43,737 nucleotides of DNA from assembly GCA_016213945.1 (NCBI GenBank), contig JACQZF010000030.1, positions 1 to 43,737 on the forward strand. The letters run 5' to 3'. The stretch is from Nitrospirota bacterium (lineage in GTDB: Bacteria > Nitrospirota > Thermodesulfovibrionia > UBA6902). A program made the translations under genes and the position numbers. The notes under the pieces are model-generated. The model was not told where the DNA came from. It ran no database searches and worked only from the letters and a program-made list of their open reading frames with translations. The first letter of the stretch is position 1. Each line of letters opens with the position of its first letter. Of the stretch, positions 4,221 to 27,877 are shown piece after piece.

Positions 4221-4249
4221 CCGGGAAGATTCTATGAATTTATATTGTC
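4221..4249 (+). promoter_or_regulatory. Candidate ECF-sigma promoter of the peroxidase gene
   Basis: CCGGGAAGATT (4221-4231), 15 bases, then GTC (4247-4249). The same 11-mer, the same 15-base gap and the same GTC occur upstream of the ECF sigma gene (5918-5946). A GGAA-type -35 and a GTC-type -10 are typical of ECF promoters. The predicted start of transcription is near 4256, about 64 bases before the ATG at 4320. Confidence 0.6.
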
Positions 4250-4270
4250 CTTAAATATAGACAATATAAA
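4239..4270. promoter_or_regulatory. 11-bp perfect inverted repeat, candidate operator
   Basis: TTTATATTGTC (4239-4249) and its exact reverse complement GACAATATAAA (4260-4270), with a 10-base spacer, so the half-sites are centred 21 bp (two helical turns) apart. It overlaps the -10 element and the predicted transcription start of the peroxidase gene, where a repressor dimer would block initiation. The regulator is unknown. Confidence 0.5.
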
Positions 4271-4319: not shown

Positions 4320-5831
4320 ATGAAGAGAATAAAAGGCATAAAGATGTTAGGGGTAATTATCGGCATCCAGATAATGATATGGCCCCTTTTCTATGTAGTT
4401 GCCGGATCAACATATGCAAAGAATACATCGGGCTTTACGAAGCATTATGAGGAGAGTCTTTTTAGAATATCAGAGAATAAGCTTTTCAGTATCGAGATGG
4501 TAATTAAAGAAAAAGAACTGATGAGAGGAATAAATGCAGTTGACCTTATCATACATGACAGGAATGACAGTGATGTTACTGGAGCTGAGCTTTCTGTAGT
4601 TCCCTGGATGCCTGAGATGGGACATGGTGTTTCCGAGAAGCCTGTAGTTGCCGAGAAAGGTAATGGCCTATACAGCGTAAACAACATTGTTCTCACCATG
4701 ACAGGCCGCTGGGACCTTAAGATTACAGTGAAAAAGGATGCTGTGAAGGACACAGCAGTTTTCAACTTTACGGAAATAAAGGCAAGGGAAACGGCAATTC
4801 AGACAACATATGAGGAATACAGAAAAGTTCTTGTCCCTCTTCCTGCTGGTCCACCGGTCCCCGCTGATAATGCCATCACACCGGAAAAAGCAGAGCTGGG
4901 AAAGATGCTCTACTGGGACAGAAGGGTATCGAAGACCGGCGCTACGAGTTGCGTATTCTGCCACTATCCCTCATATTACGGCGCAGAGCCGATGAGAAAA
5001 TCCGTAGGCATTAACGGTGAAATCCATCTGAGAAACGCCCAGACGGTTTTAAATGCGGCATTCCTGAACGGTCAGTTCTGGGCCGGGGAATCGCCTACAC
5101 TGGAGCATCAGGCATTATCTGCGATAAAATCCCATGTTGCAATGAGGAGCTGGCCGAAGGAGGTGGCTGAGAGGCTCAACAGGTTGCCTGAATACAGAGA
5201 ACGTTCCATGAATGTATGGGGTGAGCCCCTGACAGAAGATAACATCGGTAAATCCATCGCCACATATATGCGTACCCTTGTGACTCCTGATTATCCTCTT
5301 GCCCGCTGGCTGCGTGGAGACAACGGCGCCCTTACAGATCATCAAAAACGTGGAATGGCGCTATTTGTAAATAAAGGGTGCATCGGCTGTCATCACGGGC
5401 CTGTCTTTTCCGGCCCAACGCATGACCCTGAAATTAAAGTACATGCCATGGAGCATCCAGGCGCAAAAGAGATGGGGCTTCACCTCCATAAAGTCATTCT
5501 GCCTGGAGCGGAAAACGACCTTGGAAAGGCAAAGACGACAAACAAAGAAGAAGACAAATACTTTTTTAAAGTGCCGCAGCTCTTAAACGTTGCGAAGACA
5601 CCGCCTTATACTCACGCTGGACTTATTGATGACCTTCCCGATATGGTCAAATTTATGGCAAAAAACATGTTGAATACGGAATTAACTTCAACCGAGGTCT
5701 TTGATATAGTGGAGTTTCTGCATTCCCTTACCGGAGAGATACCTCAGGACTTCATGGCTCTCCCCGTTCTCCCTTCAGGCGGGGGTGGAGGAGATTTTGG
5801 CCCTGAGTTGATGCCGTCGGGTAAAAATTGA
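4320..5831 (+). CDS. Diheme cytochrome c peroxidase-like protein with N-terminal YtkA-like domain
   Basis: Exported protein of 503 residues with an N-terminal signal/anchor (about 8-33). Residues about 40-150 resemble the YtkA-like domain (PWMPEMGHG, then GLYSVNNIVLTMTGRWDL), a small periplasmic beta domain. The remainder is a CcpA/MauG-type diheme domain with two CxxCH heme sites, CVFCH at 211 and CIGCH at 354, and the usual LGKMLYWDRRVS and SPTLEHQA stretches. CcpA enzymes reduce H2O2 in the periplasm; MauG relatives oxidise other proteins, so the exact substrate is open. The C-terminus is Gly/Pro rich. GAGGTG precedes the ATG. It shares its promoter type with the ECF sigma operon just downstream, which suggests membership of that regulon. 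Confidence 0.85.
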   Translation: MKRIKGIKMLGVIIGIQIMIWPLFYVVAGSTYAKNTSGFTKHYEESLFRISENKLFSIEMVIKEKELMRGINAVDLIIHDRNDSDVTGAELSVVPWMPEMGHGVSEKPVVAEKGNGLYSVNNIVLTMTGRWDLKITVKKDAVKDTAVFNFTEIKARETAIQTTYEEYRKVLVPLPAGPPVPADNAITPEKAELGKMLYWDRRVSKTGATSCVFCHYPSYYGAEPMRKSVGINGEIHLRNAQTVLNAAFLNGQFWAGESPTLEHQALSAIKSHVAMRSWPKEVAERLNRLPEYRERSMNVWGEPLTEDNIGKSIATYMRTLVTPDYPLARWLRGDNGALTDHQKRGMALFVNKGCIGCHHGPVFSGPTHDPEIKVHAMEHPGAKEMGLHLHKVILPGAENDLGKAKTTNKEEDKYFFKVPQLLNVAKTPPYTHAGLIDDLPDMVKFMAKNMLNTELTSTEVFDIVEFLHSLTGEIPQDFMALPVLPSGGGGGDFGPELMPSGKN

Positions 5832-5917: not shown

Positions 5918-5946
5918 CCGGGAAGATTTTGCATTTAAAATTTGTC
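5918..5946 (+). promoter_or_regulatory. Candidate autoregulated ECF-sigma promoter
   Basis: CCGGGAAGATT (5918-5928), 15 bases, GTC (5944-5946): identical boxes and spacing to the promoter at 4221-4249. Transcription would start near 5954, 25 bases before the sigma-factor ATG. ECF sigma factors commonly transcribe their own operon. Confidence 0.6.
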
Positions 5947-5978
5947 TTACAATATATAGAAAGCTTTATTGAACATAA

Positions 5979-6521
5979 ATGGAATACAGAGAACTGATAG
6001 AAAAACACCTTGATTCCCTCTGGTCTACTGCCATGAGGTTTACAAAGAACAGGGAAGACGCCGAAGACCTGGTGCAGGAGACCTGCATGAAGGCCTTTGA
6101 GAATCTCGGTTCCCTGCGCTCAGAAGACAAGGCAAAGGCGTGGCTTTTCAGGATACTTACAAACACATTCATCAATAAATACAGAAAAGAACATTCACAG
6201 CCGTCGGAGGTTGAGGTTGAGACTGAATTTCTTGAACCTGTCTTTTTTAAAAGCGGGCAATATTTCGATCTGGAGAATGAAATATTCTCCAGGGTCATGG
6301 ATGAAGAGATAAAGAACGCCGTCGACAATCTGCCTGTTGAGTTCAGGATGGCGGTTGTCTTTGTAGATCTGGAAGAGCTCTCATATCGGGAGGTTGAAGA
6401 TATCCTTAAGATTTCTTCCGGAACTCTGGCCTCAAGGCTTTACAGGGGCCGGAGACTATTGAGAGACGCCCTCTGTGAATACGCGAAAAGGAGAGGGCTT
6501 TTAAAGGAGAAGAAAGCATGA
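5979..6521 (+). CDS. ECF (sigma-70 family) RNA polymerase sigma factor
   Basis: 180 residues with the two-domain ECF layout. Sigma region 2 lies at about 10-75 (AMRFTKNREDAEDLVQETCM, then KAWLFRILTNTFINKYRK) and region 4 at about 110-165 (LPVEFRMAVVFVDLEELSYREVEDIL, with the DNA-binding helix SGTLASRLYRGRR). There is no region 3. It overlaps the anti-sigma gene by 4 bases (ATGA), the normal coupled arrangement. No strong Shine-Dalgarno is visible at the ATG. From the shared upstream motif it probably activates its own operon and the peroxidase gene at 4320. Confidence 0.93.
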   Translation: MEYRELIEKHLDSLWSTAMRFTKNREDAEDLVQETCMKAFENLGSLRSEDKAKAWLFRILTNTFINKYRKEHSQPSEVEVETEFLEPVFFKSGQYFDLENEIFSRVMDEEIKNAVDNLPVEFRMAVVFVDLEELSYREVEDILKISSGTLASRLYRGRRLLRDALCEYAKRRGLLKEKKA

Positions 6522-7249
6522 AGTGCGGAAATGCGAGAAAAATAACCTATCTGTCCGAATATCCTGAGGTAGTCACTCAGGAAATGGTTGAGGCCAAAAG
6601 GCATGTAAACGAATGCCCTGAATGCAGGACGTTCTTTGAACAGGAGAGGGCATTTTCAGCTTTGGTCAGGGAGAAAGTCGCAAAAGATGAAGCGCCTTCA
6701 GAGCTGAGACGGCTGTTATTAAAACCTGTTCCCGCAAGGAAGATACATTCAAAACTGCTGTATAAAATCATATCCATCGCCGCGATACTGATGTTGTTTG
6801 CCGGCGGGTATATATTCAAACTCCATAGTGATACAGCGTCCCTCGTTGAAAAGATAGTCAACGACCATATTGATTTCCAGTCATATTCGGGTATACAGAT
6901 AATTTCATCGGATTCCGGCGAGATAAAGACCTGGTTTAACGGGAGGGTGGATTTCGGGGCGGTTGTGCCCGGGCTGTCTGCGACACTTAAGGGGGCGCGG
7001 CTCTGCCTGCTGGATGAAAAACGGCTGGCCCTTATTTTTTATGAACACGGCGGTTCTCAGCTTTCCCTGTTTATGACGACTGAATTGAATCCTGAACGAT
7101 TGTTAACTGATGAGGAGGTGATAGTAAAGGACAAAAAAGTGCATGTTGTTGAGCGGAAAGGCTATAACCTGCTCTTGTGGCAGGAACGGGGCGTTACTTA
7201 TGCCCTTGTATCTGATTTAAGTATCGAAGAACTGAAAAAAACACTTTAG
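6518..7249 (+). CDS. Anti-sigma factor with zinc-binding N-terminus and one membrane helix
   Basis: 243 residues. H29-x3-C33-x2-C36 is the ZAS zinc motif (HVNECPEC) of cytoplasmic anti-sigma domains that hold ECF factors. A single membrane helix lies at about 81-100, followed by a periplasmic domain of about 140 residues that I do not recognise. Zinc anti-sigma factors of this type often release sigma when their thiols are oxidised, which would suit the neighbouring peroxidase and thiol-exchange genes; whether this one is redox- or proteolysis-controlled cannot be read from the sequence. It is coupled to the sigma gene by a 4-base overlap. Confidence 0.88.
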   Translation: MKCGNARKITYLSEYPEVVTQEMVEAKRHVNECPECRTFFEQERAFSALVREKVAKDEAPSELRRLLLKPVPARKIHSKLLYKIISIAAILMLFAGGYIFKLHSDTASLVEKIVNDHIDFQSYSGIQIISSDSGEIKTWFNGRVDFGAVVPGLSATLKGARLCLLDEKRLALIFYEHGGSQLSLFMTTELNPERLLTDEEVIVKDKKVHVVERKGYNLLLWQERGVTYALVSDLSIEELKKTL

Positions 7250-7259
7250 GAGGAATTTA

Positions 7260-7730
7260 ATGAAGAGACTCATTGTATTAACAGTAGTATTTATTTTCGC
7301 ATTGGCGTCCCTGTCCTTTGCAGGCGGATGGGACAAATCGAAAGGAACGGACAAAGTTACTTTGAAGGGCACGCTTTTATGCGTCGGCTGCAACCTCAAA
7401 AAGATGAGCGGCGCGAATGCGCAGTGCGATCTTTTCGCGCATCATGCCATTGGATTCAAGACAGAAGACGGCGTTATATGGAACATTGTAGAGAATGCCA
7501 AAGGCCACGATATTGTAAGGGGACACAAACTCCTCGAGAAAAACGTGCCGGCAGCTATTACCGGCTGGATTTATCCGGTTGCCAATGCGATAGAGATTGA
7601 TTCCATAGAGGTTGAAGGCATCAGCATGGCGGAAATCCAGAAGGCCGCATGGGAAGAGGACCAGCTTATCGCAAAAGCGCTCATGAGCCGCAAGGTTGGG
7701 GAAGCGCCTGTTGCGGTGGATAAACACTAA
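7260..7730 (+). CDS. Small exported Cys-containing protein of unknown function
   Basis: 156 residues with a clear signal peptide (MKRLIVLTVVFIFALASLSFA). The mature part has CVGC at about 41-44 and a third Cys followed by two His (QCDLFAHH) about 15 residues later, then a beta-rich stretch ending in TGWIYPVANAIEIDSIEVEG. The C/C/C/HH pattern could bind a metal or form a disulfide. I do not recognise a named family. AGGAGG precedes the ATG, and its stop codon directly abuts the ATG of the DsbD-like gene, so it is likely a periplasmic client or partner of that electron pathway. Confidence 0.85.
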   Translation: MKRLIVLTVVFIFALASLSFAGGWDKSKGTDKVTLKGTLLCVGCNLKKMSGANAQCDLFAHHAIGFKTEDGVIWNIVENAKGHDIVRGHKLLEKNVPAAITGWIYPVANAIEIDSIEVEGISMAEIQKAAWEEDQLIAKALMSRKVGEAPVAVDKH

Positions 7731-8417
7731 ATGCTGGAGTCTATTGTAAAGGCTGTTGAGGACCCCTCCCTTCTGTCAATTCCGGTTGCATATGCGGGAG
7801 GGGTCCTCGCCTCTCTTACACCCTGTGTGTATCCCATGGTCCCGATAGTCCTCGGGGTAATAGGCGCGTCAAATATAGAGAGTAAGTCAAAAGGGTTTTC
7901 CCTTTCTCTTTCTTATGCCCTCGGACTTTCGCTTGTATACACTGTGATGGGCATTATAGCCTCTGTGACCGGAGGTTTCTTCGGCGAGATAGCGACAAGT
8001 CCATGGAGCTATCTTGTCTTCGGGAATTTTTGTCTGGTCCTCGGTTTCTGGATGATGGAGTGGATCAATATCCCTTTCTTTTCAAAAAACAGGACAACGG
8101 ACAGAAAAGGGCATATAGGGGTATTTATAACCGGAGCCCTGTCGGGGATTGTTGCTGCGCCCTGTACATCGCCCGTGCTTGCCGGTCTTCTGCTTTATGT
8201 AGCAAAAACAAAGGATGTAGTGTTCGGCGGTTCAATGCTTTTTTCATTTTCAATAGGCATGACTACTCTGTTGATACTTATCGGGACTTTTTCAGGCGTC
8301 ATGAAGTCCATGCCGAAACCGGGCGAGTGGATGGTCAGGGTCAAAAAGGCGATGGCATTGGTATTATTTGTGTTCGGCGAATATTTCATAATCAGGTCAG
8401 GAGGCTTATTAATATGA
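7731..8417 (+). CDS. CcdA/DsbD-type transmembrane thiol-electron transporter
   Basis: 228 residues, about six membrane helices. The two redox cysteines of the DsbD beta domain/CcdA family are present: TPCVYPMVP (C32) and APCTSPV (C145). It carries electrons from cytoplasmic thioredoxin across the inner membrane to periplasmic thioredoxin-like proteins. It begins directly after the stop of the preceding gene, and its TGA overlaps the ATG of the TlpA-like gene (ATGA), so the two are translationally coupled and the TlpA-like protein is the obvious electron acceptor. No extra soluble domains are fused. Confidence 0.9.
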   Translation: MLESIVKAVEDPSLLSIPVAYAGGVLASLTPCVYPMVPIVLGVIGASNIESKSKGFSLSLSYALGLSLVYTVMGIIASVTGGFFGEIATSPWSYLVFGNFCLVLGFWMMEWINIPFFSKNRTTDRKGHIGVFITGALSGIVAAPCTSPVLAGLLLYVAKTKDVVFGGSMLFSFSIGMTTLLILIGTFSGVMKSMPKPGEWMVRVKKAMALVLFVFGEYFIIRSGGLLI

Positions 8418-8965
8418 TGAAACGGATGTTGTTTGTTGTTTTCTCGGTCATTGTGATCAGCGGGTGTGCAGCAGATAAGAAAGATGTCCCTGAGAGTAAA
8501 GCCGCAAACGAAAGTGTGAATGAGACTTCAGTAAACGTTGGAGGCGGCGTAGGTGATAATGCTCCTGATTTCAACGCCTTGTCCCTTGAAGGGAGGCAGG
8601 TGTCTTATTATAATGATCTCAAGGGGAAGAAACCTGTTTATCTGACCTTCTGGGCAACGTGGTGACCGACCTGCAGATCAGAGCTTCCCGTGTGGAAGAA
8701 GATGCATAAGCAGTTAGGTGACAGGGTGGAGTTTATAGGAGTAAATGTAGCAATAAACGAAAGGCCGGAAGCGGTCAGGGATTACGTCGGCACGAACAAT
8801 CTGAATTTTACGAATATCTATGACAAAGGCGCAAAGATAACAAAGTCCTTCGGCGTTATGGGGACCCCGACCCATATCGTTATTGACAGACAAGGGATAA
8901 TCCGATACGCAGGCGTCGATGCGCCCGATGATTTTGAGGAACATATGAAAGAGCTGCTTGATTGA
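8414..8965 (+). CDS. TlpA-like thioredoxin-fold lipoprotein, probable selenoprotein (in-frame UGA = Sec84)
   Basis: Read through the TGA at 8663-8665, this is one 183-residue protein. It has a lipoprotein signal with lipobox ISGC (C18), the AhpC/TlpA start GDNAPDFNALSLEG, then FWATW-UGA-PTC, where TlpA proteins have W-C-x-x-C. The downstream half continues in frame with the rest of the fold, including the cis-Pro loop (GTPTHIVIDRQG). The UGA sits exactly where the first redox cysteine belongs, the resolving Cys87 is intact, and a hairpin that meets the bacterial SECIS rules lies 18 bases downstream (8684-8698). A nonsense mutation is less likely but not excluded. It is coupled to the DsbD-like gene, its likely reductant. 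An automatic caller would split it into 8414-8665 and 8690-8965. Confidence 0.85.
8684..8698 (+). promoter_or_regulatory. Candidate bacterial SECIS hairpin
   Basis: Stem CTTCC (8684-8688) with GGAAG (8694-8698), 5 perfect base pairs, and a 5-base loop CGTGT whose second base is G. There are 24 bases between the UGA and the loop G. Known bacterial SECIS elements have a short apical loop with G in the first or second position about 16-37 bases after UGA, so this fits. It is inside the coding sequence, as expected for bacteria. Confidence 0.6.
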
Positions 8966-9003: not shown

Positions 9004-11274
9004 ATGCGGGATAGCCCGACCATGAGAGATTTGACTGCTCTAAAAAGATTTTTCCATTTTCTTCTGGTCCTCCTCTTCGCTTTTTTCGAGGTGTCTTCAG
9101 CCATGGTAATCACCGGTTGTACCCCCGGGGAAAAGAATGACTCCGACTCATCCGGTCCGGGAAGTGAACAAGCAAGGTATGCCGCTCTTCCCGGTGCCTC
9201 TCCTTTCGACCAGGCGCGTTTAAGTGAATTTGAGAGAAGGAGAAAAGAGCTGGGCAGGGATTACCATCCAAGGACAAAGCACCTGCGGACTGACGGTTGG
9301 GCGATGTACACCAACCGCCTTTTCCTGGAAACAAGTCCATATCTGCTGCAGCATGCCCACAATCCTGTCAATTGGTTTCCGTGGGGAGACGAGGCATTCG
9401 AGCTTGCCGGGAAGCTCAACATCCCCGTGCTCCTCAGCATAGGTTATTCTACATGTCACTGGTGTCACGTCATGGAAGAGGAGTCCTTTGAAGACGAGGA
9501 AATCGCAAAGATCATGAACGAGCGGTATATTGCAATTAAGGTCGACCGTGAAGAGCGTCCGGATATTGACGCCATTTATATGAGTGCGGTCCAGGCTATG
9601 ACCGGAGGCGGGGGGTGGCCCATGACGGTATGGTTGACTCCGGACCGAAAGCCGTTTTATGGAGGGACTTACTTTCCTCCGCGAGACGGAGACCGTGGAG
9701 CAGAAATTGGTTTTTTGAGTATGCTAAAACAACTCCGTAAGGCATATGACGAGCAGCCGGATAAGGTCAGTCAGTCCGGTCAGCAGTTGGCAAATATCAT
9801 AAAAAGTGCGCTTGCTCCCGACAATGGCAGCGCCCTTCCTGAAGCAGGACTATTAAAGAACGCTGCGAATTATTACAAAGATCGATTTGATTCCACTTAT
9901 GGAGGACTGTCAGGCGCTCCTAAATTTCCCCGCTACTCGACCGATTCAGAGTGGCTTGTCCCTCACTTCGAAAAAATGCTTTATGACAACGCTCTTTTAA
10001 CGCTTGCCTATCTTGAAGGATACCAGGTCACGGGAAATTCTGAATTTAAGCGTGTGACCGGAGAAATCCTTCGTTATGTTAAGCGCGACATGACCTCTTC
10101 CAAAGGGGCTTTTTACTCGTCCACGGACGCGGACAGCCCGAATCCCAAAGGCCATCGGGAAGAAGGATGGTTTTTCACCTGGACGCCGAATGAAATTAAA
10201 GACGCTTTAGACGAAACCGATGCAAAGTTAATGATCGAGTATTACATGGTAAGCTCTGGTGGAAACTTTGAAGGACGCGGTATTCTTCACACGCCGGAGC
10301 CGCTTTCAAAAATAGCAAAGAAATTCAGGCTCTCTGAATCTCAGGCAAGAGAAAAAATCAACCAGAGTCTTGATAAACTCTATGAAGTAAGACTTAGAAG
10401 GCCGGCGCCCATTCGCGATGAAAAAATATTGACCGCGTGGAATGGACTTATGATTTCAGCTTATGCGCGGGCCGGGCTTCTTCTGAACAACGAAGAATAC
10501 GTTGTAACGGCAAAGAGATCTGCCGGGTTTGTTTTAGAAAATCTCTACAAAAACAAACGGCTGTTCCGCAGCTATAAAGATGGTCGGGCGAAGTTTAATG
10601 CTTACCTGGATGATTACGCTTTTTTTACGGCGGCGCTTCTGGATCTTTATGAGGCGACGTCTGAAGTCAAATGGCTGAAGACCGCAATTGAGATAGACCA
10701 GGCTTTACAAGAGCACTATGAAGATAAAAATTCCGGTGGATTTTTTATGACAAGCAATGATCATGAGAAATTGTTGGCCCGTGAAAAACCCGCTTATGAC
10801 GGGGCTGAACCTTCTGGAAACTCCGTTGCGATCTTAAACCTTTTGCGTCTTCAGGAGTTTACGACCGACGATGAATACCGGAAAAGGGCTGAAAAAGCGC
10901 TTAAAGCTTTTTCCGGAACTCTTCAGTCCAGTCCCATGGCTCTCTCGGAAATGCTTCTTGCCGTTGATTTTCACCTCGATAAGCCAAAAGAAATCATCAT
11001 TGTTTCTCCCAAGGGAAAGAAATCAGATTCCGAGGTCCTCATCTCTCAATTTAGAAAGGAGTTTTTACCCAATCGAATCATTTCGTTTATTGAAGAAGGC
11101 GCAGAGCTTGAAAGTCATGCGCAAGTGATTCCATTGGTTAAAGCTAAGCATGCCATAAAGGGTAAGCCGACCGCCTATGTTTGCGAACTGGGAATTTGTG
11201 AACTGCCTACCAGCGATCCGGACACTTTTACCGGGCAAATATCGAAGATAGAGGATTTAAAGGGAGCTGAATAA
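9004..11274 (+). CDS. YyaL/DUF255 thioredoxin-domain lipoprotein, apparent internal deletion
   Basis: 756 residues of the YyaL/spermatogenesis-associated-20 family: an N-terminal thioredoxin-like DUF255 domain ([19 protein letters not shown], then [14 protein letters not shown] with C151 and C154) followed by an alpha/alpha-barrel region resembling sugar epimerases. Unusually it has an exported lipoprotein-type leader (lipobox ITGC, C39). At about residues 307-311 APKFP joins directly to [19 protein letters not shown]; family members have roughly 45-50 residues between these blocks, so a segment is missing in frame. The start is uncertain: AGGAGG at 8983-8988 points to an ATG at 8994 that ends after six codons, while in-frame ATGs are 9004 and 9022. 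It lies among thiol-exchange genes. Confidence 0.85.
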
Positions 11275-11277
11275 CAT

Positions 11278-12459
11278 ATGGACAGTTTGTTCATTAATGC
11301 AATGGCAGCATTCGCAGCAGGGATTTTATTGAACTTTACCCCGTGCGTGCTTCCCGTTATTCCTATCAAGATCCAATCGCTATTGAGTGAAATAGAAGGG
11401 ACCTTTCGCTCACGATTTTTAGCGTCTCTTGCTCTTTTGCTGGGCTCCCTGGCTTTTTTCATGATCTTCGGGGGTCTGATCGCTTTCATGGGCTGGAAAT
11501 GGGGGGAGCTTTTCCAATCAAAGACTTTTTTGGCCCTGCTTTCTCTTTTTCTTGTTCTCTCAGGTCTTGCCACATTATCCAACTGGAGCTTGACCCTTCC
11601 GCAGTTTGTCCATAAGGTCCCTATTCATCGGTATCTGGGCGCATTTTTAACGGGCGCCCTTGCAGGGGCTTTGTCAACTCCCTGTTCGGGACCATTTCTG
11701 GGGTCTGTTTTGGCCTACGCCGTCACAAAACCCCCTGCTGTCATTATTGCAATCTTTGCGGCCATCGGCACAGGGACCGCATTCCCCTTTGCCACGGTCC
11801 TTCTTTATCCGGGAGTCATGACCTGTCTGCCGCGCGGCGGACTGGTGGGGATGCAGATTAAGGCAATCATGGCTTTTATTTTGATCGCAGGCGGGATTTT
11901 TTTCTCCGGCGCATTCTTTCCGAAAGAGTTTTATCCTGTTTTATGGAGGATGTTTGCTTTCGGAATTGCCGTTTGGTGTGTTTTACATTTTAGAAGATCG
12001 AGGAAGATCATCGAGTCGGCTGTTCCTCTACTTGCTTTTGTTGGAGTTTTAGCAGCCGCTGCGTTCTCTTTTATCTCTACCGAAAGCGGTACGCTTGACT
12101 GGCGGAGTTATTCAAGAGAGAAAGTGCAGCGCTCATTGGAATCAGGCCGTCCTGTGCTTCTTGAATTTACCGCTGACTGGTGTATTAACTGTAAAGTCCT
12201 GGAAAAAACGACGTATGCCGACGCCGATGTCATCGAAGCAGCAGCGAAAGTAAATTTAAGTTTATTTAAGGTGGACATGACCGAATTCAACGATGATCAA
12301 AAGAAACTGTTAGAAGAATATGGCGGAACTTCTTTGCCCCATGCCGTTATTTTAAATTCCTCAGGTGGGCCCGTGCACACTTTTTCAGGCATGTTTGGCG
12401 CTGACTACCTCAGAAAAGCTATTCTCGCTGCCAGTCGGGGGACCCCTTCTGCTTCTTAA
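11278..12459 (+). CDS. DsbD-like thiol:disulfide interchange protein with C-terminal thioredoxin domain
   Basis: 393 residues. An N-terminal membrane domain of about eight helices carries TPCVLPVIP (C23) and TPCSGPF, the two redox cysteines of the DsbD transporter. The C-terminal periplasmic thioredoxin domain has ADWCINC (C302, C305). The N-terminal DsbD-alpha domain of classical DsbD is absent, giving a beta-gamma architecture. It should import reducing power from cytoplasmic thioredoxin and hand it to periplasmic partners. It starts 3 bases after the YyaL-like stop. This is the second DsbD-type transporter within 4 kb; the two likely serve different clients. Confidence 0.93.
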   Translation: MDSLFINAMAAFAAGILLNFTPCVLPVIPIKIQSLLSEIEGTFRSRFLASLALLLGSLAFFMIFGGLIAFMGWKWGELFQSKTFLALLSLFLVLSGLATLSNWSLTLPQFVHKVPIHRYLGAFLTGALAGALSTPCSGPFLGSVLAYAVTKPPAVIIAIFAAIGTGTAFPFATVLLYPGVMTCLPRGGLVGMQIKAIMAFILIAGGIFFSGAFFPKEFYPVLWRMFAFGIAVWCVLHFRRSRKIIESAVPLLAFVGVLAAAAFSFISTESGTLDWRSYSREKVQRSLESGRPVLLEFTADWCINCKVLEKTTYADADVIEAAAKVNLSLFKVDMTEFNDDQKKLLEEYGGTSLPHAVILNSSGGPVHTFSGMFGADYLRKAILAASRGTPSAS

Positions 12460-16744: not shown

Positions 16745-17287
16745 ATGAATGAGACAAAATGTTGCTGCGACGACGGCAGCGCAAAGGGAATCAGCAGACG
16801 GCAGTTGCTCAGCCTTGCAGGCTGGGGGGCATTCTTTACTACCCTCGGCGTGTCTCTTCTCGGCACGGTCAGGTTTTTATTCCCCCGCGTATTGTTTGAG
16901 CCGCCGCTGACATTCAAGATCGGACTGCCCGAAGACTTCAAGTCCGATGAAAAGGCAGATGGCCATAATGTGCTTTTTGTAAGTGAGAAGTGGAAAGACA
17001 GCCAGAGGGTCTGGATAGTCAGGGAGAAGGACAAGATATATGCGATGTTTACCCGGTGTACCCACCTGGGATGCACACCGAACTGGTTTCCAGAAGACGG
17101 GATATTCAAATGCCCTTGTCACGGGAGCCAGTACTACAGCAATGGAGTGAACTTCGCCGGCCCGGCCCCAAGACCGCTGGACCGTTTTGCCGTTACGATT
17201 TCAGATGACGGCCAGATATTGGTGGACAAGAGCAAGCTTTATAGCATCAAAGAATTTGATGACCCGAATTCTTATATAAAGGTATAA
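16745..17287 (+). CDS. Rieske [2Fe-2S] protein of a cytochrome bc-type complex
   Basis: 180 residues. A Tat-like signal (SRRQLL at about 17-22, then a hydrophobic helix) anchors it on the periplasmic side of the membrane. The cluster ligands are present: C105-T-H107-L-G-C110 and C123-P-C125-H126-G-S. It shuttles electrons from quinol at the Qo site of cytochrome b to a c-type cytochrome. It is the first gene of the operon containing both cytochrome b pieces and the multiheme cytochromes and has a sigma-54 motif upstream. Three adjacent Cys near the N-terminus (KCCCDD) are unusual; they lie on the cytoplasmic side before the signal. Confidence 0.95.
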   Translation: MNETKCCCDDGSAKGISRRQLLSLAGWGAFFTTLGVSLLGTVRFLFPRVLFEPPLTFKIGLPEDFKSDEKADGHNVLFVSEKWKDSQRVWIVREKDKIYAMFTRCTHLGCTPNWFPEDGIFKCPCHGSQYYSNGVNFAGPAPRPLDRFAVTISDDGQILVDKSKLYSIKEFDDPNSYIKV

Positions 17288-17302
17288 ACGGAAAGGGACA
17301 AC

Positions 17303-18055
17303 ATGAAGGACATTCTGAAGAAAGTTACGGAGTCACAGGTCTGGAAATCCGTATTCCGTCACGGCTATGCAGATGAAACAAAGAACCGGATGCTCCAGAT
17401 ACGGTCCAATGTTTTCCTTCACCTGCATCCCTTTAAGATGCCCCGGCATGCCTTTAAAATCCGTTTTACGTGGTGTATGGGCGGCGTAACTTTCTTTTTG
17501 TTTTTAATAGAGGTAATAACGGGGCTTCTGCTTATGTTTTACTACCGGCCTGTTACCGAGTATGCCTATCTTGATATGAAGTTTCTTGAATTCGATGTTC
17601 CCTTCGGCATTATCCTGAGAAACATCCACCGTTGGGGGGCGCATGCGATGGTTGCGACGGTCATGGTCCACATGCTGAGAGTTTTTCTCACAGGGTCGTA
17701 TAAGCCGCCAAGAGAGTTTAACTGGGTGGTGGGTGTAATTTTGCTTGTACTGACACTCCTGCTGAGTTTTACCGGCTATCTTCTCCCCTGGGACCAGCTC
17801 GCTTTCTGGGCCATAACAGTAGGCTCAAATATGGCGAGGGCAACACCCATACTTGGGCACGAAGGCCCCTTTGCCATTGTCGATAAATATAATGACGTCC
17901 GTTTTGCATTGCTTGGCGGCACGGACGTCGGCGCAAGCGCCCTATTAAGATTTTATGTGCTTCATATTATGTTATTGCCTCTTGTAGCGATAATTCTCAT
18001 GGCGGTCCACTTCTGGAGGATAAGAAAAGACGGAGGAATATCAAGACCGCTTTAA
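17303..18055 (+). CDS. Cytochrome b, N-terminal (b6-like) subunit
   Basis: 250 residues with four membrane helices. The bis-histidine pairs for the two b hemes are visible in [20 protein letters not shown] and in the later helix (FYVLHI and [11 protein letters not shown]). [16 protein letters not shown] is the conserved Qo-side segment. It corresponds to PetB/cytochrome b6, i.e. cytochrome b split into two genes. It follows the Rieske gene and its stop overlaps the start of the C-terminal piece by one base (TAATG). Confidence 0.95.
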
Positions 18056-18807
18056 TGAACGGTCTCGTAAAAGGAATAAATATGGAAGCAGCAGAAACCA
18101 AAAAAGAAGATAAAGAGTCAGCAACAGGCAAACAGGACACGGAATATGTATGGCCTGATCTGGTATTCAAGGAATATCTTGCCGTCGTTGCCGTGACAGC
18201 GCTTATGTTGCTGTGGGCGCTCATGGTCAACGCTCCATTGAGGGAATTGGCCAATCCGGGCCTGACCGAAAATCCTGCAAAGGCCCCCTGGTATTTTTTG
18301 GGCTTGCAGGAGCTGCTTGTATATTTTGACCCGTGGATGGCGGGTGTCGTCCTGCCCTCTTTGATAATTACCGGCCTGATCGCTGTTCCTTATATTGACA
18401 CGAACACAAAGGGCGTGGGTGAGTATGCCCTGAGTTTAAGGAAGTTTGCAGTTTATAACTATCTGTTCGGGTTTATTATGTGGTGGGTCCTGATTGTAAT
18501 AGGGACTTTCCTGAGAGGGCCCAACTGGAATTTTTACTGGCCATGGGAGTCCTGGGAGATCCATAAAGAAGTTGAACAGGCATTGGTATTTCAGCCTGCC
18601 TGGGGACCTGCATTTCTGGGGATCTATTTTCTTGCAGGCTTTGTGGTCCCCTGGCTGACAAGCAGGTATCTCAGGGAAAAAGGATTTCTCAGGTATTCAA
18701 TCATAATGCTGCACCTTCTCATTATGTATTTTGTGCCTGTAAAGATCGTTCTCAGGCTGGTCTTTAATGTGCGGTATGTGTGGGCTGCGCCCTGGTTCAA
18801 TATTTAA
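18055..18807 (+). CDS. Cytochrome b, C-terminal (subunit IV-like) subunit
   Basis: 250 residues. A soluble lead of about 45 residues is followed by helices corresponding to helices E-G of cytochrome b. The Qo motif PEWY appears as APWY within NPAKAPWYFLGLQELL, so the acidic residue is absent, a variant I associate with some menaquinol-type complexes. More helices than the minimal PetD follow (GFIMWWVLIVIGTFLRGPNW and two near the C-terminus). The first 10 codons include an internal ATG (18082). It completes the quinol-oxidising core with the two preceding genes. Confidence 0.92.
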   Translation: MNGLVKGINMEAAETKKEDKESATGKQDTEYVWPDLVFKEYLAVVAVTALMLLWALMVNAPLRELANPGLTENPAKAPWYFLGLQELLVYFDPWMAGVVLPSLIITGLIAVPYIDTNTKGVGEYALSLRKFAVYNYLFGFIMWWVLIVIGTFLRGPNWNFYWPWESWEIHKEVEQALVFQPAWGPAFLGIYFLAGFVVPWLTSRYLREKGFLRYSIIMLHLLIMYFVPVKIVLRLVFNVRYVWAAPWFNI

Positions 18808-18887
18808 AGGAAGGGGCAGAGGCACAAAGGCACAGAGGGAAAGAGGATTATTTTGAATCTTGAATTTTTTAATTTTGAATTTTGACA
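18808..18887. other. Gap with short GGCACA-type direct repeats
   Basis: An 80-base gap within the operon containing GGCACAAAGGCACAGAGGG and then an A/T-rich stretch with repeated TTGAAT/TTGAATTTT units. The GGCACAGAGG word recurs (reverse orientation) before recG at 34577-34600. No ribosome binding site is recognisable before the next gene. Confidence 0.35.
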
Positions 18888-21014
18888 ATGAGACTGACGA
18901 CTAAACAACGAACCGTTCATCTTATCTTCACTGCCACACTGGTTGTTTTTACCGTGTGGGCAATCTACAGCGAGGCTGTCTCATCACGCCCCTGGAAAAA
19001 ATATCAGCGTGAATTCAAAAAAATCGAATTGAAAGACACGGCGGACAGGTTAAATAACCTGGAGCTTGAAAAGCAGAAAATCAAAGACAGCGATGGGCTG
19101 AAAAAAATCGACAGGAACATCGAGCTGCTTAAGTTGAGACTGGCCAAGGCTGAGTCAGGCAGCCCGAAGATAATCCAGAACTGGCTCCTGGAATTTAACA
19201 ATGAGGCGGACAGATGCGTCACCTGTCACATGGCAGTGGACAAGCCGGGGTTTGAGAAACAGGCCAATCCGTACAAGACACATCCCGGCAACTATCTTGA
19301 AAAACACCCTGTCCAGACCTTCGGATGTGTGAATTGCCATGACGGAGAGGGACATGCGCTTACAGTGGAACAGGCGCATGGCCATGGAGAGAACTGGCTT
19401 AAGCCTCTCCTCAGCGGAAGCTATGCCCAATCAAAATGCGTCAAATGCCATTCTCTGGGACAGGAACTGCCGCGTGATATAGTGATGCCCGGAGGGGAGA
19501 AGGTTGTGAAGGGGTGGCGGCTTTATATGGAAAAGAACTGTCTCGGATGCCACGTGAATTCCCTTTATGAGAGACCAAAAAGGATAGCCCCTGTTCTGAC
19601 AAAGGTCGGCAGGAAGGTCAATAAGGAGTGGATTAAAAGATGGATCAATAAACCGAAAGATTACCTGCCGAAGACGAACATGCCCGACTTTTCCCTGGAG
19701 GATGAGGAGGTCGAGTTGATTTCAACGTATCTTTTGAGTCTGGCCGGGGGTGAAAAGATCAATGAGCCGAAGGCGCTGCAAAGGTTAAACGATAAGCTGG
19801 CGATTGAAAGCGGTAAGAGTTTGGTCAACAAGCTCGGCTGCACCGGCTGCCATACAATCAACGGCAAGGGCGGGGACTTTGCCCCTGACCTCTCCGGCAT
19901 TGCCGGAAAGACTTATCCTGAGTTTCTCTACTTCTGGTTAAAGGACCCCAAGGCGCACCAGCCGGACGCCCCAATGCCTGACCTCAGAATACCTGAGGAG
20001 GAGATCCAGGACATTGTGGCATATCTGTTTACCTTGAAGAAGGACAAAGAAAAGACGACCTATGCATGGGACATTGACTTTGCCCCTGAGGTCATAAAGA
20101 AGGGCAAGGACTTGCTCAAGGACAAGGGCTGCACCGGCTGTCATGAGATCGAGGACTTGCCGCAGGGATTCAATGCGCCGCCTCATGATGGAGTTGCAAG
20201 TAAAAGACCTGAAGAGCTGATTTGGACCAATATGGAAGATTTTAACGAGAAGTCCCTCAAGAACTGGCTGACTATTAAGGTGATGGACCCGAAGAAATTC
20301 TCCTCAAAGCAGCAGAACATAATTACAAGGATGCCGAAGTTTGATTTCACAGAGGAAGAAGCTGAAGCGCTGGTCACATTTATTCTAAGTCTTACGAAAG
20401 AGAACTTTCCCAAGAGACATTTAAGGACGCTGGCGGATGCCGGGTCCGTTGAGATGAAGGGCAGGAAGCTGCTTGAAGACAGGAACTGCCTTGGCTGTCA
20501 CACGATCAATAAGAAGGGCGGGAGTGTGGCGCCTGATCTGACTGACGAAGGAAGGAAGGTAAGGCCTGAATGGCTCTTCAGTTTTATTACGCAGCCGTAC
20601 AGGATCAGGCCGTTACAGGAGGCAAGGATGCCTTATTTTAAATTGTCGGGCGACGAGATCACCACTATGATTGAATACCTGGCCTTTGTCTCAGGTGAAA
20701 CTTACCCATATATCTATGCAGACAAAAAAGTCACCTATGAAGAAGATATCGCGGCAGGGAAAGAGCTGTACCAGAAGGAGCTTGCATGCCTTGGATGCCA
20801 TACCTTTGAGGGCAAGGGCGGTCTTGTAGGTCCTGAGCATACGGACCTGGCGAGCAGGCTGAGAAGAGAATGGATAGAAAGTTGGCTCGAAAACCCCCAG
20901 GCCATTCAACCTGATGTGAAGATGCCGAGATTTAAATTCAAAGATAAAGAGAAGGAGTATCTGGTCGATTACCTGATGACCATGGGAAGGGAGAGGTTCC
21001 TTGCGGTCCAATAA
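18888..21014 (+). CDS. Membrane-anchored eight-heme cytochrome c with five tandem cytochrome c domains
   Basis: 708 residues. One N-terminal membrane helix (about 9-28), a charged helical stretch (about 40-95) likely forming a coiled coil, then eight CxxCH sites at about 109, 146, 183, 217, 317, 414, 533 and 633. The last five each belong to a class I-like domain that ends in an MPxF/MPDL-type motif supplying a candidate Met ligand (MPDFSLEDEE, MPDLRIPEEE, MPKFDFTEEE, MPYFKLSGDE, MPRFKFKDKE), so the protein is a chain of duplicated units. ATG 18888 is preferred to TTG 18882. It probably takes electrons from the Rieske protein and passes them along the periplasm. It overlaps no neighbour. Confidence 0.92.
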   Translation: MRLTTKQRTVHLIFTATLVVFTVWAIYSEAVSSRPWKKYQREFKKIELKDTADRLNNLELEKQKIKDSDGLKKIDRNIELLKLRLAKAESGSPKIIQNWLLEFNNEADRCVTCHMAVDKPGFEKQANPYKTHPGNYLEKHPVQTFGCVNCHDGEGHALTVEQAHGHGENWLKPLLSGSYAQSKCVKCHSLGQELPRDIVMPGGEKVVKGWRLYMEKNCLGCHVNSLYERPKRIAPVLTKVGRKVNKEWIKRWINKPKDYLPKTNMPDFSLEDEEVELISTYLLSLAGGEKINEPKALQRLNDKLAIESGKSLVNKLGCTGCHTINGKGGDFAPDLSGIAGKTYPEFLYFWLKDPKAHQPDAPMPDLRIPEEEIQDIVAYLFTLKKDKEKTTYAWDIDFAPEVIKKGKDLLKDKGCTGCHEIEDLPQGFNAPPHDGVASKRPEELIWTNMEDFNEKSLKNWLTIKVMDPKKFSSKQQNIITRMPKFDFTEEEAEALVTFILSLTKENFPKRHLRTLADAGSVEMKGRKLLEDRNCLGCHTINKKGGSVAPDLTDEGRKVRPEWLFSFITQPYRIRPLQEARMPYFKLSGDEITTMIEYLAFVSGETYPYIYADKKVTYEEDIAAGKELYQKELACLGCHTFEGKGGLVGPEHTDLASRLRREWIESWLENPQAIQPDVKMPRFKFKDKEKEYLVDYLMTMGRERFLAVQ

Positions 21015-21024
21015 GAGACAGAAT

Positions 21025-21414
21025 ATGAAAAATTTATTGAAGATTGCGGCGCTGGTTGTCTGCGCAGCGCTAACGGTTGTTTTAACTGTCCGCTACAGCG
21101 CAGCAGGTGAAAAGCCGAAGCTTGCCGAGGGCAAAAGGCTGTATATGCACTATTGCACTATGTGCCACGGAGTAAAAGGCGACGGGAAGGGATTTAACGC
21201 CGGATATCTTGACCCTAAACCCGCGGACCACACAAATGCCGGGGAGATGAGCAAGAGGACTGATGAAAAATTATTCGATACCGTTTCCGGGGGCGGAAAA
21301 TCCGTAGGCAAGTCAACATATATGCCTCCCTGGGGCTGGACCTTCACCGAAGCCCAGATAGAGTCTCTCGTGCTCTACCTGAGGCAGCTTTGTAATTGCA
21401 AAGGCCCCGAGTAG
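21025..21414 (+). CDS. Monoheme cytochrome c
   Basis: 129 residues from ATG 21025: a signal/anchor (MKNLLKIAALVVCAALTVVL) and one class I cytochrome c domain with CTMCH at about 43, GVKGDGKG after it, and MPPWGW as the likely Met axial ligand region. The frame is open upstream to a TTG at 21001 inside the previous gene, but ATG 21025 with AAGAGA before it is more plausible. The C-terminus has CNC close to the end. It resembles the cytochrome at 26824 (same GKR-Y-CxxCHG-GDG layout and MPPW motif), so the two are likely paralogs. It is probably a soluble or membrane-tethered electron carrier. Confidence 0.9.
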   Translation: MKNLLKIAALVVCAALTVVLTVRYSAAGEKPKLAEGKRLYMHYCTMCHGVKGDGKGFNAGYLDPKPADHTNAGEMSKRTDEKLFDTVSGGGKSVGKSTYMPPWGWTFTEAQIESLVLYLRQLCNCKGPE

Positions 21415-21527
21415 GGCCGTGCAGAGGAGGTGATGGATTAATTTATACCTCACGCAGGAGCTTGAAGATTGCTGTTATATTTATTAAAAATTATATGCCT
21501 GTCAAGGCCGAAAAGGAGGGAGTAAAG

Positions 21528-23993
21528 ATGGAAAGGAAAAAAATAAGGGGAGCGCCGCTTCTTATCAGACTGACAATGGCGATGCTGTTGGCGGCCACCT
21601 TTTTTGTGATAAGGGCGTATTCAGCCATGGAGCCTGCACAGTCCCCGTCTGCTTCATCGGGCAGCTCTTCATACAAGGGCGATCCGAAGGAGGAGTGGAA
21701 GCACTGGCAGAAGAAGTTTAATGAGCAGATGGCTGCAAAGGAGGTCACGGAAAGGAAGAAAAAGAAGTGGCTTGAAAAAGAATTTGAAATAAAAGAGGTC
21801 GTCATAGGAGACATTAAGGTCGCCGGCATACCGGGAATGGACGGAAGCGTTATTAAGCTGAAGGACGTGTCCGGTATGAATGTAAACAAGGACGACAAGG
21901 TAGTTGAAAGGTGTCTGACCTGCCACGACGGCGTTGAACAGATAAGCGCCTTTCACCCTGTCAATCAGTTTGGGTGCACAATATGTCACAGGGGGAATGG
22001 CGAATCCGTAGTAAAAGAAGAGGCGCACAAAAATATGCTTTACGGACAGGCGTCGATGGGAGGCAAAAGGAACCCTTCAAACTTCAGGGTGGTCGATAAA
22101 TCATGCGCGCTTTCAGGCTGTCACGCCGGGCATAGACAGGATGATATTAACCACTGGCCGAGGCTCAGCAAGACCATGATGTCGCTCCAGGCTGGAAAGA
22201 TTGCGGCCATCAGGTTTCAGTGGGCCGCACAGCCGGGCAAGGAGGCCAAATACGCCACTGTGGGGGTCAAGGACGAAGATGGTTTTACGCCCACGCACAG
22301 GGGCGCCTTAAAGTCCATCGGCACACTGCCGGTTTTCTCGCCTAAGGACCTCCCGCTTAACGATGACGGCTCGTTCAATCATCAAGATGACATGGGGAAC
22401 CCGATTGAGGTAAGCCGCGAGATCGCAGACAGCCAATGGAGGAAATCCTGCGGGAGATGTCACTTCTGGGTTGACAGGAATGACACAGACCATAATGCCT
22501 CTGCCGACTACAGGGCACAGGGTTGCGCAAGCTGTCATGTGCTTTACGATGATGACGGTAAATACAAGGGGAATGACCCGACTATACCAAAGGACAAATC
22601 AGGACATCCCAAGGTGCACCAGGTGACCACTGCAATACCTGCAACGCAGTGTATCCACTGCCACAACCGGGGCGGCAGGACCGGCACAAGCTTTGAAGGC
22701 AGGGTGGAGTCTGATTTCTATGGGACGCCTTTTGATAAAGGAGGACAGTCAAAGCTCAAATTCCATGGCAAGTATTACAACACCCTTACCATGGACATAC
22801 ACTATGAAAAAGGTCTGGAGTGTATAGACTGCCATACGCAGTATGATGTCATGGGCGACGGCAATATCTACTCGAAAAAATTCGAGCAGGTAGAGGTGAG
22901 GTGTGAAGACTGTCACGGCAACTACAACGAGGGGCTCAAGACCGCGAAAGTCACAAAGCAGAATGACAGGGTCGTCAGGCTCAGCGTTGTCTCTCCGAAC
23001 TACAAGAACAAGGCCGGCGATGAGATGGTGCTCACAGCCAGAGGCAACAAATACACAAATGCAAAGATCATTGACGGAGAGGCCATCCTGATCAGCAAAT
23101 TTGACGGGCGTGAACACAAGATGCCGGTCATTACAGGCAAGAAAGGCGCACATTCCATCCCGCAGCATCAGGAGAGGATGGACTGTTTCTCATGCCATTC
23201 AAGATGGGTCCCTCAGTGCTATGGATGCCATGACTACTATGATCAGGCATCTATGAGCGGCGACCGGCTCACGATGAGAACAGACACCAAAAAGGGCGTT
23301 AAAACACCCGGGAACTGGCCTGAATGGAGGAGCTATGTAAGGTACCTTGAGCCCGCGCTCGGCATAAATGCAAAGGGCAAGGTGGCCCCGTATATGCCCG
23401 CATGTCAGGTGCAATTTAATGCCATAGACGGCAGCGGCAGCGTCATAGAACCTTTTGACAATTTTGTTTTCGCTACAAAAGAAGGATATAATCCCGGCAC
23501 GGTCCAAAGCTCGATGCAGCCCCATTCCATGAGGGCAGAGGTCAGGACTTGCGAGGACTGTCATCTGAATCCCAAGGCCCTCGGGCTTGGAGTCGGCGAT
23601 CTGTTGTTAGGCAGGGCGTCGGATGGATCAGAGGACAAGATAGACTATCTCTATGACATGGCAAAATCAGGCCTGACGCCCAACTTCCCCTTTGAGGTCA
23701 TAGAGACGCCTCGCGGACAACAGGTCACATCTAACAGCCACATAGGCGCCAGACCTTTTAATCAGAAGGAGCTGAACAGGATATGGAGGGTCGGAACATG
23801 CCTGCCGTGCCACGATACATATGAGGACCCGATATACCTGAACATCAACGACAGCTACAAAAAGGCAGAGAGTCCCGGACACAAAAAGAAGATCGATGAT
23901 CTGCTGAAGTCGTCAAAGACGGCGTCCATTGAAAAACCGAAGGCTGCCGTTGAAGCAAAGATGGCTGCTGCGAAGAAGGAGGTGGCCAGATGA
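21528..23993 (+). CDS. Large multiheme cytochrome c, about 12 hemes
   Basis: 821 residues. Signal/anchor at about 10-33, a charged helical segment, then eleven CxxCH sites from CLTCH (about 129) to CLPCH (about 758) plus one CALSGCH (C-x4-C-H), giving about twelve hemes. There is no recognisable catalytic motif of nitrite reductase or HAO. I chose ATG 21528 because GGAGGG (21515-21520) lies 7 bases upstream; the frame is open to 21396. It overlaps the next gene by 4 bases (ATGA). It aligns by eye with the next gene over most of its length, so the pair arose by duplication. It is a probable periplasmic electron-transfer subunit of the bc-type complex. Confidence 0.9.
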   Translation: MERKKIRGAPLLIRLTMAMLLAATFFVIRAYSAMEPAQSPSASSGSSSYKGDPKEEWKHWQKKFNEQMAAKEVTERKKKKWLEKEFEIKEVVIGDIKVAGIPGMDGSVIKLKDVSGMNVNKDDKVVERCLTCHDGVEQISAFHPVNQFGCTICHRGNGESVVKEEAHKNMLYGQASMGGKRNPSNFRVVDKSCALSGCHAGHRQDDINHWPRLSKTMMSLQAGKIAAIRFQWAAQPGKEAKYATVGVKDEDGFTPTHRGALKSIGTLPVFSPKDLPLNDDGSFNHQDDMGNPIEVSREIADSQWRKSCGRCHFWVDRNDTDHNASADYRAQGCASCHVLYDDDGKYKGNDPTIPKDKSGHPKVHQVTTAIPATQCIHCHNRGGRTGTSFEGRVESDFYGTPFDKGGQSKLKFHGKYYNTLTMDIHYEKGLECIDCHTQYDVMGDGNIYSKKFEQVEVRCEDCHGNYNEGLKTAKVTKQNDRVVRLSVVSPNYKNKAGDEMVLTARGNKYTNAKIIDGEAILISKFDGREHKMPVITGKKGAHSIPQHQERMDCFSCHSRWVPQCYGCHDYYDQASMSGDRLTMRTDTKKGVKTPGNWPEWRSYVRYLEPALGINAKGKVAPYMPACQVQFNAIDGSGSVIEPFDNFVFATKEGYNPGTVQSSMQPHSMRAEVRTCEDCHLNPKALGLGVGDLLLGRASDGSEDKIDYLYDMAKSGLTPNFPFEVIETPRGQQVTSNSHIGARPFNQKELNRIWRVGTCLPCHDTYEDPIYLNINDSYKKAESPGHKKKIDDLLKSSKTASIEKPKAAVEAKMAAAKKEVAR

Positions 23994-26641: not shown

Positions 26642-26656
26642 TATCAATGAGTTATC

Positions 26657-26692
26657 GTGAGGGGGGCATAGTCCCCCCTCACATAGTTTTTA
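26657..26692 (+). terminator. Rho-independent terminator of the bc/multiheme operon
   Basis: Perfect 10-bp stem GTGAGGGGGG / CCCCCCTCAC (26657-26666 and 26673-26682) with loop CATAGT, followed by ATAGTTTTTA. It lies 16 bases after the stop of the last multiheme gene and ends the sigma-54-driven operon. Confidence 0.9.
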
Positions 26693-26823
26693 CAATAGGG
26701 AAAGCAGTTGGAGGCCGTGACAGTTTGTCATTCTGAATTTGTTTCATTGTCCCGATAAGTGAGAGCATGAAATAAATTCAGTTTGATAAAACAAGCAGCC
26801 TTATGAAAAGGAGTGAAGAGCAG

Positions 26824-27228
26824 ATGAGGAAAAACAGACCATTTAAGACAGGGATTGTCATAGTTTTTTTGGTGTTAACGGCCTTTGCCGCAACAGCTTA
26901 CGCGCAGCAGGGAGATGTCAGGAAAGGGAAGAGGATTTACGAACAGTTCTGCGTGCCCTGTCATGGCCTTGAGGGAAAAGGAGACGGGACAAGGGGAAAG
27001 AGCGAACACTTTGACCCCATGCCGAGAAACCACGTAAACGGCGAATATATGAACAAGAGGCCGCAGCAGGAGCTCTTTGAAGTCATCAGGAACGGCGGCT
27101 TCTCAAAAAACTTTTCCCATATCATGCCCCCCTGGAAGACGATACTTGCCGATGAGGAGATTTGGGACGCACTGGGCTATGTCAGAAGCATGGCTGTTCC
27201 GCCGTATCAGCCTGCGGGACCTCAGTAG
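26824..27228 (+). CDS. Monoheme cytochrome c
   Basis: 134 residues from ATG 26824: a signal peptide (up to about TAYAQ) and a single class I cytochrome c domain with CVPCH at about 42, then GLEGKGDGTRG and HIMPPW with the probable Met ligand. AAGGAG (26808-26813) stands 10 bases before this ATG; an in-frame ATG at 26803 would contain that site. It is the first gene after the terminator at 26692, so it needs its own promoter, but I see no convincing one in the 110-base gap. It is similar to the cytochrome at 21025. Confidence 0.9.
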   Translation: MRKNRPFKTGIVIVFLVLTAFAATAYAQQGDVRKGKRIYEQFCVPCHGLEGKGDGTRGKSEHFDPMPRNHVNGEYMNKRPQQELFEVIRNGGFSKNFSHIMPPWKTILADEEIWDALGYVRSMAVPPYQPAGPQ

Positions 27229-27259
27229 ATTGATAAGCTAAAACACGGGAGAAAGTTAA

Positions 27260-27877
27260 ATGAAAACTGACATGAAGCAAAAATATACAATGAAGTTCCT
27301 CATAGTCGCCTTATTTGTACTCGGCTGCGCGGTATCTTTCGGTCATGCTTTGCAGGGTGAAGACTCTCCATATGTGGGTTCGGAAGAGTGTGGCAAATGT
27401 CACCTCAAAGAGTACAAGTCATGGGAGCAGACAAATCTCGCCAGGGCATTGCTTGTGCTTGGTCCGAGGAAGATGATGAAGATCAAAAAGAACGCCGGCC
27501 TGGACCCATATGCGGATTACACAAGAGAGCCCAAATGCCTGAAGTGCCATACAACGGGGTTTGAGCAGAAGAAGGACGGTTCTTATGTATTTGCTGAATA
27601 CGGCATAGGCTGTGAAGCTTGTCATGGGGCCGGGAAGAAATACAGTATGATCATGAAATTGAAGGGGCGGGATTACAAAAGGGAAGAATTGATAGAGGCG
27701 GGACTCTATGCCGATTTCAGCGGCATATGCGAAAAATGCCACAATGAAGAGGCCCCTGTTGTAGAGGCTGATTATAAATTTTCCCATAAAGAGAGATATG
27801 AAAAAGTGCATATCCCTGCAAAACTAAAATATCATCAGCAGATTGAGAGGTTCAAGAATGAAGATGAAAAAGAGTAG
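27260..27877 (+). CDS. Tetraheme cytochrome c554-like protein
   Basis: 205 residues with an N-terminal signal (about 10-30) and four CxxCH sites: C44, C93, C118 and C157. The pattern YVGSEECGKCHLKEYKSW near the start and GIGCEACHGAG later is that of the cytochrome c554/c-prime family of periplasmic multiheme carriers. The C-terminus is charged. It overlaps the cupredoxin gene by 20 bases and follows the monoheme cytochrome by 31 bases, so the three are one operon. No catalytic function can be inferred; electron transfer is the safe reading. Confidence 0.9.
   Translation: MKTDMKQKYTMKFLIVALFVLGCAVSFGHALQGEDSPYVGSEECGKCHLKEYKSWEQTNLARALLVLGPRKMMKIKKNAGLDPYADYTREPKCLKCHTTGFEQKKDGSYVFAEYGIGCEACHGAGKKYSMIMKLKGRDYKREELIEAGLYADFSGICEKCHNEEAPVVEADYKFSHKERYEKVHIPAKLKYHQQIERFKNEDEKE

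Follow-up and report, generated by a model that had tools for sequence, protein, structure and literature searches.

The question raised by this locus is whether an in-frame UGA, standing where a TlpA/ResA-like protein carries its first redox cysteine, is read as selenocysteine (Sec). The window, meaning the whole stretch of 43,737 nucleotides that was analysed, comes from a genome of 3.5 Mb that is 98% complete. The gene and its elements are as follows.

8414..8965, + strand: predicted TlpA/ResA-like thiol-disulfide oxidoreductase with Sec84 (UGA) and resolving Cys87 (translation, Pfam, structure model)
8663..8665, + strand: in-frame UGA, predicted to be read as selenocysteine (translation; ortholog alignment)
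8684..8698, + strand: bSECIS-like hairpin CUUCC[CGUGU]GGAAG, loop at 8689-8693, 23 nt after the UGA

Translation of 8414-8965 gave 183 residues (MMKRMLFVVFSVIVISGCAADKK...FWATW-U-PTCRSELP...LLD-stop, with TGA shown as U), with a single internal TGA at codon 84 and an ordinary TGA terminator at 8963-8965. Pfam analysis revealed one Redoxin/AhpC-TSA/thioredoxin domain spanning residues 46-172 across the UGA (E=2.5e-24), indicating that both halves align as one protein, consistent with the preliminary description of a UGA in place of the first redox Cys in a frame that continues through a thioredoxin fold. As also foreseen there, standard annotation would report this gene as two fragments, so that a conserved redox enzyme would be lost. 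The closest solved sequence was ResA, and an AlphaFold2 model, with Cys placed at residue 84, was confident over the domain and gave ResA structures as its best structural matches, with a TM of 0.84-0.87 by target length for ResA 4nmu. Alignment with 25 Cys homologs showed W80, W83, position 84, C87 and P152, the cis-Pro position, to be invariant, and the ResA-type thioredoxin fold, the W-C-x-x-C-type active site and the cis-Pro of TlpA/ResA-type proteins were all found. The earlier statement that this position is always Cys is too strong, as a second TlpA family described below carries UGA at the equivalent codon. Inspection of the translation revealed a hydrophobic N-terminus, a putative signal sequence, with a lipobox (VISGC), and the product is probably exported and lipid-anchored. 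Among the orthologs the lipobox was seen in the window copy only. From this and the sequence evidence that follows, we estimate a probability of about 0.9 that the gene encodes a Sec-containing TlpA/ResA-type reductase.

All four components of the Sec machinery were identified in the window's genome. The tRNA-Sec (selC) is canonical with a UCA anticodon and scored 73.9 bits, and shares one contig with selB (360.7 bits) and selA (625.8 bits), while selD (328.7 bits) contains an in-frame TGA of its own within a GGUAAKLGP loop. At codon 84 the UGA might instead specify a different amino acid, such as Cys through an opal-reading tRNA, for which unusual tRNAs provide a precedent in principle. However, among the tRNA-Sec-model matches read by ARAGORN the only UCA anticodon was that of the canonical tRNA-Sec, the remaining matches that were read being Trp, Ser, Leu, Thr, Gly and Tyr tRNAs. 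UGA was also the terminator of 8 of the window's 30 plus-strand genes, the TlpA(Sec) gene itself among them, indicating a genetic code without global change, and with selA, selB and selD all present such a reading is very improbable.

Orthologs were searched for in 396 genomes of the phylum and in 230 of the class, and strict thresholds gave 12 genomes with an ortholog, the window included. Codon 84 was TGA in 10 of the 12 aligned sequences and TGC in two (L159 and L162). Outside the window, 9/11 aligned orthologs had TGA at precisely this position and kept the frame beyond it, and 2/11 had TGC. A further, frameshifted copy located through its neighbouring gene (L195, in genome G444) also carried TGA, giving a total of eleven UGA copies from several families of the class. 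A motif scan of contigs by peptide pattern with Cys at the site gave no Sec relative among the resulting loci. Alternatively, a nonsense mutation could have turned the gene into a pseudogene, or the TGA could have arisen as an error in sequencing or assembly, as the genome is a draft and one relative (G003) contains a deletion remnant of the gene. Against this, independent genomes keep both the UGA and an intact downstream frame. This excludes a sequencing error or a private nonsense mutation and, together with the covarying hairpin and synonymous conservation reported below, leaves this explanation vanishingly improbable. The preliminary argument against a chance nonsense mutation is therefore upheld, and the refuting circumstances named with it, a genome devoid of Sec machinery or a misread codon, do not apply. 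The codon and its conservation were observed directly, and the properties of a bacterial selenoprotein were found together: a UGA aligned with the catalytic Cys of homologs, the genes selA, selB, selC and selD, and the UGA in other organisms.

The nucleotide sequence downstream of the UGA was compared between copies by synonymous codon identity, in which only codons for the same residue were compared over 140 six-codon windows. Among the UGA copies the identity at codons +7 to +12 after the UGA was 0.96 compared to a gene median of 0.438, the top six-codon window of the whole gene, and this region coincides with the hairpin. Two control TlpA families with Cys gave no peak of synonymous identity at the site. 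The hairpin lies 23-25 nt downstream of the UGA across the copies, and in long-form copies has the form AGCUUC-C-CC[GUGU]GG-A-GAAGCU. Pairing was retained in 94.4% of cells in nine long-form copies, compared to at most 59.7% in slid controls, and in three pairs both partners had changed, such as C-G replaced by A-U in L195 and U-A by C-G in L172. The window copy and the ortholog L156 retain CUUCCC-GUGUGGA with one C missing and one A gained further on, so that the residues encoded there are PVWK and not PRVE. The preservation of the GUGUGG string in a shifted frame indicates that the RNA itself is under selection. In both Cys copies this string is lost and the hairpin degraded.

The published bacterial bSECIS model has a loop of 3-9 nt, a stem of 4-16 bp, G(G/U) in the first two loop positions, a distance of 16-37 nt from the UGA and a minimum free energy (MFE) of -7.5 kcal/mol or below (PMC13188914 Fig 2). 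The window hairpin lies within this consensus with a 5-bp stem, the loop CGUGU and a spacing of 23 nt, while the hairpins of the relatives fit only with one internal mismatch in the stem. The MFE was -8.1 kcal/mol for the window (50 nt), -6.8 kcal/mol for L156 and about -5 kcal/mol for the core hairpin alone. When folded singly the window hairpin was no more stable than shuffled sequences (z 0.23), and synonymous recodings often folded equally well, so that neither single-sequence folding nor recoding gave significance. The assignment of a putative SECIS element is thus a comparative one, not drawn from single-sequence folding.

A second TlpA selenoprotein family was identified with the motif FW[AST]TW-U-PWCRKELPSLE and UGA at the equivalent codon, present in each of the 10 genomes of the genus and in many of the family.

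G000:C13:3826-4167: second Sec-TlpA in the window's genome (L046); further copies L024-L029, L033, L037 and L044

In this UPWC family a separate hairpin is conserved 16 nt downstream of the UGA, and synonymous identity peaks at 0.979 at +3 (+3 to +8). The UPWC gene of G003 retains its UGA, yet selA was not found in that genome, which is 95% complete. In the tree the two Sec-TlpA families formed separate clades with 100/99 support each, and their hairpins differ in sequence and in distance from the UGA. A topology uniting both families as one clade, corresponding to a single origin of Sec, was not rejected (p 0.168). Within the clade of the window gene the two Cys copies nest among the UGA copies. 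With the Sec and hairpin columns masked, a tree uniting the UGA copies without the Cys copies was rejected (p 0.019), and selA is still present in both Cys genomes. Together these observations point to one Sec-to-Cys reversal accompanied by loss of the RNA element. Change in this direction has been reported as rare outside formate dehydrogenase and SelD (PMC1794560), and the clade provides a natural setting in which Sec and Cys can be compared at one active site between related genomes.

The genes and elements around the TlpA(Sec) gene have the following arrangement.

4222..4252, + strand: second copy of the promoter-like element, CGGGAAGATT-N-TTGTC, upstream of the di-haem peroxidase-like gene
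4320..5831, + strand: MauG/cytochrome c peroxidase-like di-haem protein with a YtkA-like domain and two CxxCH motifs
about 5919-5949, + strand: ECF-promoter-like element GGGAAGATTT-N-TTGTCTTA, upstream of the sigma gene
5979..6521, + strand: ECF-type RNA polymerase sigma factor (profile matches)
6518..7249, + strand: anti-sigma factor, zinc-type H-x3-C-x2-C at residues 29-36 (motif; RsrA match below threshold)
7260..7730, + strand: exported 156-residue Cys-rich protein, CVGC...C...HH (translation)
7731..8417, + strand: CcdA/DsbD transmembrane electron carrier (DsbD_TM profile)
9004..11274, + strand: DUF255/Thioredox_DsbH protein, 38-nt gap after the operon
11278..12459, + strand: second DsbD_TM protein with a C-terminal thioredoxin domain

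The CcdA product scored 148.5 bits against DsbD_TM (cut-off 27.1), and its stop codon and the TlpA(Sec) start codon overlap (ATGA) both in the window and in L156 from a distant genome. The CcdA neighbour is also kept in L177 (65%) and L195 (70%). The coupling to a DsbD-type carrier given in the preliminary description is thus real, and is kept in two distant genomes. The order sigma, anti-sigma, Cys-rich protein, CcdA, TlpA(Sec) was observed in the window and in G444, and in G397 the order is identical up to CcdA, where the contig ends. The searches gave no family or structure match for the Cys-rich protein, and 76% identical copies were found only in G397 and G444 (another family). The DUF255/Thioredox_DsbH gene may belong to the operon. 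In G003 the locus is broken by a deletion that has taken out CcdA together with the bulk of the Cys-rich gene and the 5' portion of TlpA, so that what is left of the Cys-rich gene, its beginning, now runs into the 3' portion of TlpA. The sigma and anti-sigma sequences there (L023/L188) are 96% identical to those of the window, while the TlpA remnant is only 61% identical. Elsewhere in the window, at 16745-27877, Rieske and cytochrome b genes precede a group of clustered genes for c-type cytochromes, both mono- and multihaem.

The pattern CGGGAAGATT-N(10-17)-TTGTC occurred exactly twice in the whole 3.5 Mb genome, both times in the window, and the reversed control pattern gave zero matches in the genome. 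The element upstream of the sigma gene (GGGAAGATTT...TTGTCTT) is kept in four genomes. A scan for sigma-70-type promoters gave nothing above chance. The sigma/anti-sigma context is confined to a few genomes, and most other orthologs lie in other neighbourhoods (LolA-like, MMPL, DUF1302, methyltransferase) in which CcdA is not adjacent. The role of CcdA and the ECF pair is therefore argued for the window-type operon only, and the clients and regulation proposed here may not apply to the whole clade.

From these observations a mechanism can be proposed in which SelB and tRNA-Sec would decode the UGA, aided by the hairpin within the coding sequence, to give an active site of Sec84-Pro-Thr-Cys87 with selenocysteine as the attacking residue. 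Reduction of the Se-S bond would most likely draw on cytoplasmic thioredoxin, whose electrons the overlapping CcdA would carry through the membrane; we regard this route as likely. The reduced Sec-TlpA would then reduce periplasmic disulfides, with two candidate clients, the Cys-rich protein of 156 residues and the di-haem peroxidase at its haem-site cysteines. The operon's own ECF sigma factor would probably turn it on once the zinc-type anti-sigma factor is oxidised, a step to which we give roughly even odds.

Alternatively, the Sec protein could act as a peroxidase, or as a redox sensor acting on the anti-sigma factor, and not as a CcdA-fed reductase. The Redoxin/AhpC-TSA Pfam match is compatible with such a role, as are the partner genes, a di-haem peroxidase and a sigma/anti-sigma pair. 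The product nevertheless combines UxxC with a ResA fold, in contrast to the TxxU of Sec peroxiredoxins (PMC13188914), and the overlapping CcdA gene is conserved, making a peroxidase or sensor unlikely. With the CcdA-fed reductase as the preferred reading, we tentatively propose that a dedicated ECF sigma/zinc anti-sigma stress regulon supplies CcdA and Sec-TlpA as a selenium-based periplasmic reductant by which a di-haem peroxidase or its haem-site thiols would stay reduced, within a clade that also underwent a rare Sec-to-Cys reversal with decay of the SECIS and retention of the Sec machinery. This complete scheme is possible, at somewhat less than an even chance. Such an operon would connect the use of selenium in the envelope with a stress response under ECF control, a link that is directly testable.

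ResA, TlpA and CcmG, Cys proteins that receive electrons from CcdA in known systems, have the fold, the W-[U/C]-x-x-C motif and the cis-Pro position in common with the TlpA(Sec) product, whereas here Sec is predicted to replace the attacking Cys. The SigR-RsrA disulfide-stress regulon likewise has an ECF sigma factor and an H-x3-C-x2-C anti-sigma factor beside thiol-redox genes; the anti-sigma factor of the window scored 34.2 bits against the RsrA model, below the cut-off of 62.5, and the resemblance is one of working only. The ResA-like WAxxUGC selenoprotein NF041054 also contains Sec, with UGC in its motif compared to UPxC here, and a score of 58 bits against a curated cut-off of 300 places the TlpA(Sec) product outside that family. 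The Prx-like thiol:disulfide oxidoreductase of Geobacter and others (PF00578; PMC1794560, PMC13188914) shares the matched Pfam family and the UxxC motif with the TlpA(Sec) product. The thiol-disulfide isomerase-like selenoprotein (cd02966; PMC1088965, PMC13188914) shares the TlpA-like fold, Sec in the first position of UxxC and a predicted redox role; compared by description, the present gene differs in its own conserved hairpin, the pairing with CcdA and the ECF operon. Sec in TlpA-like proteins, earlier called uncommon, is indeed rarer than Cys at this position, but has already been catalogued (PMC13188914, PMC1088965), as have UxxC selenoproteins of the TlpA-like, Prx-like and redoxin families (PMC13188914, PMC1088965, PMC1794560). 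The UxxC TlpA-like kind of selenoprotein is therefore known, and further points of interest are the putative regulation of this member, the presence of another TlpA selenoprotein in the window's genome and the apparent Sec-to-Cys reversal.
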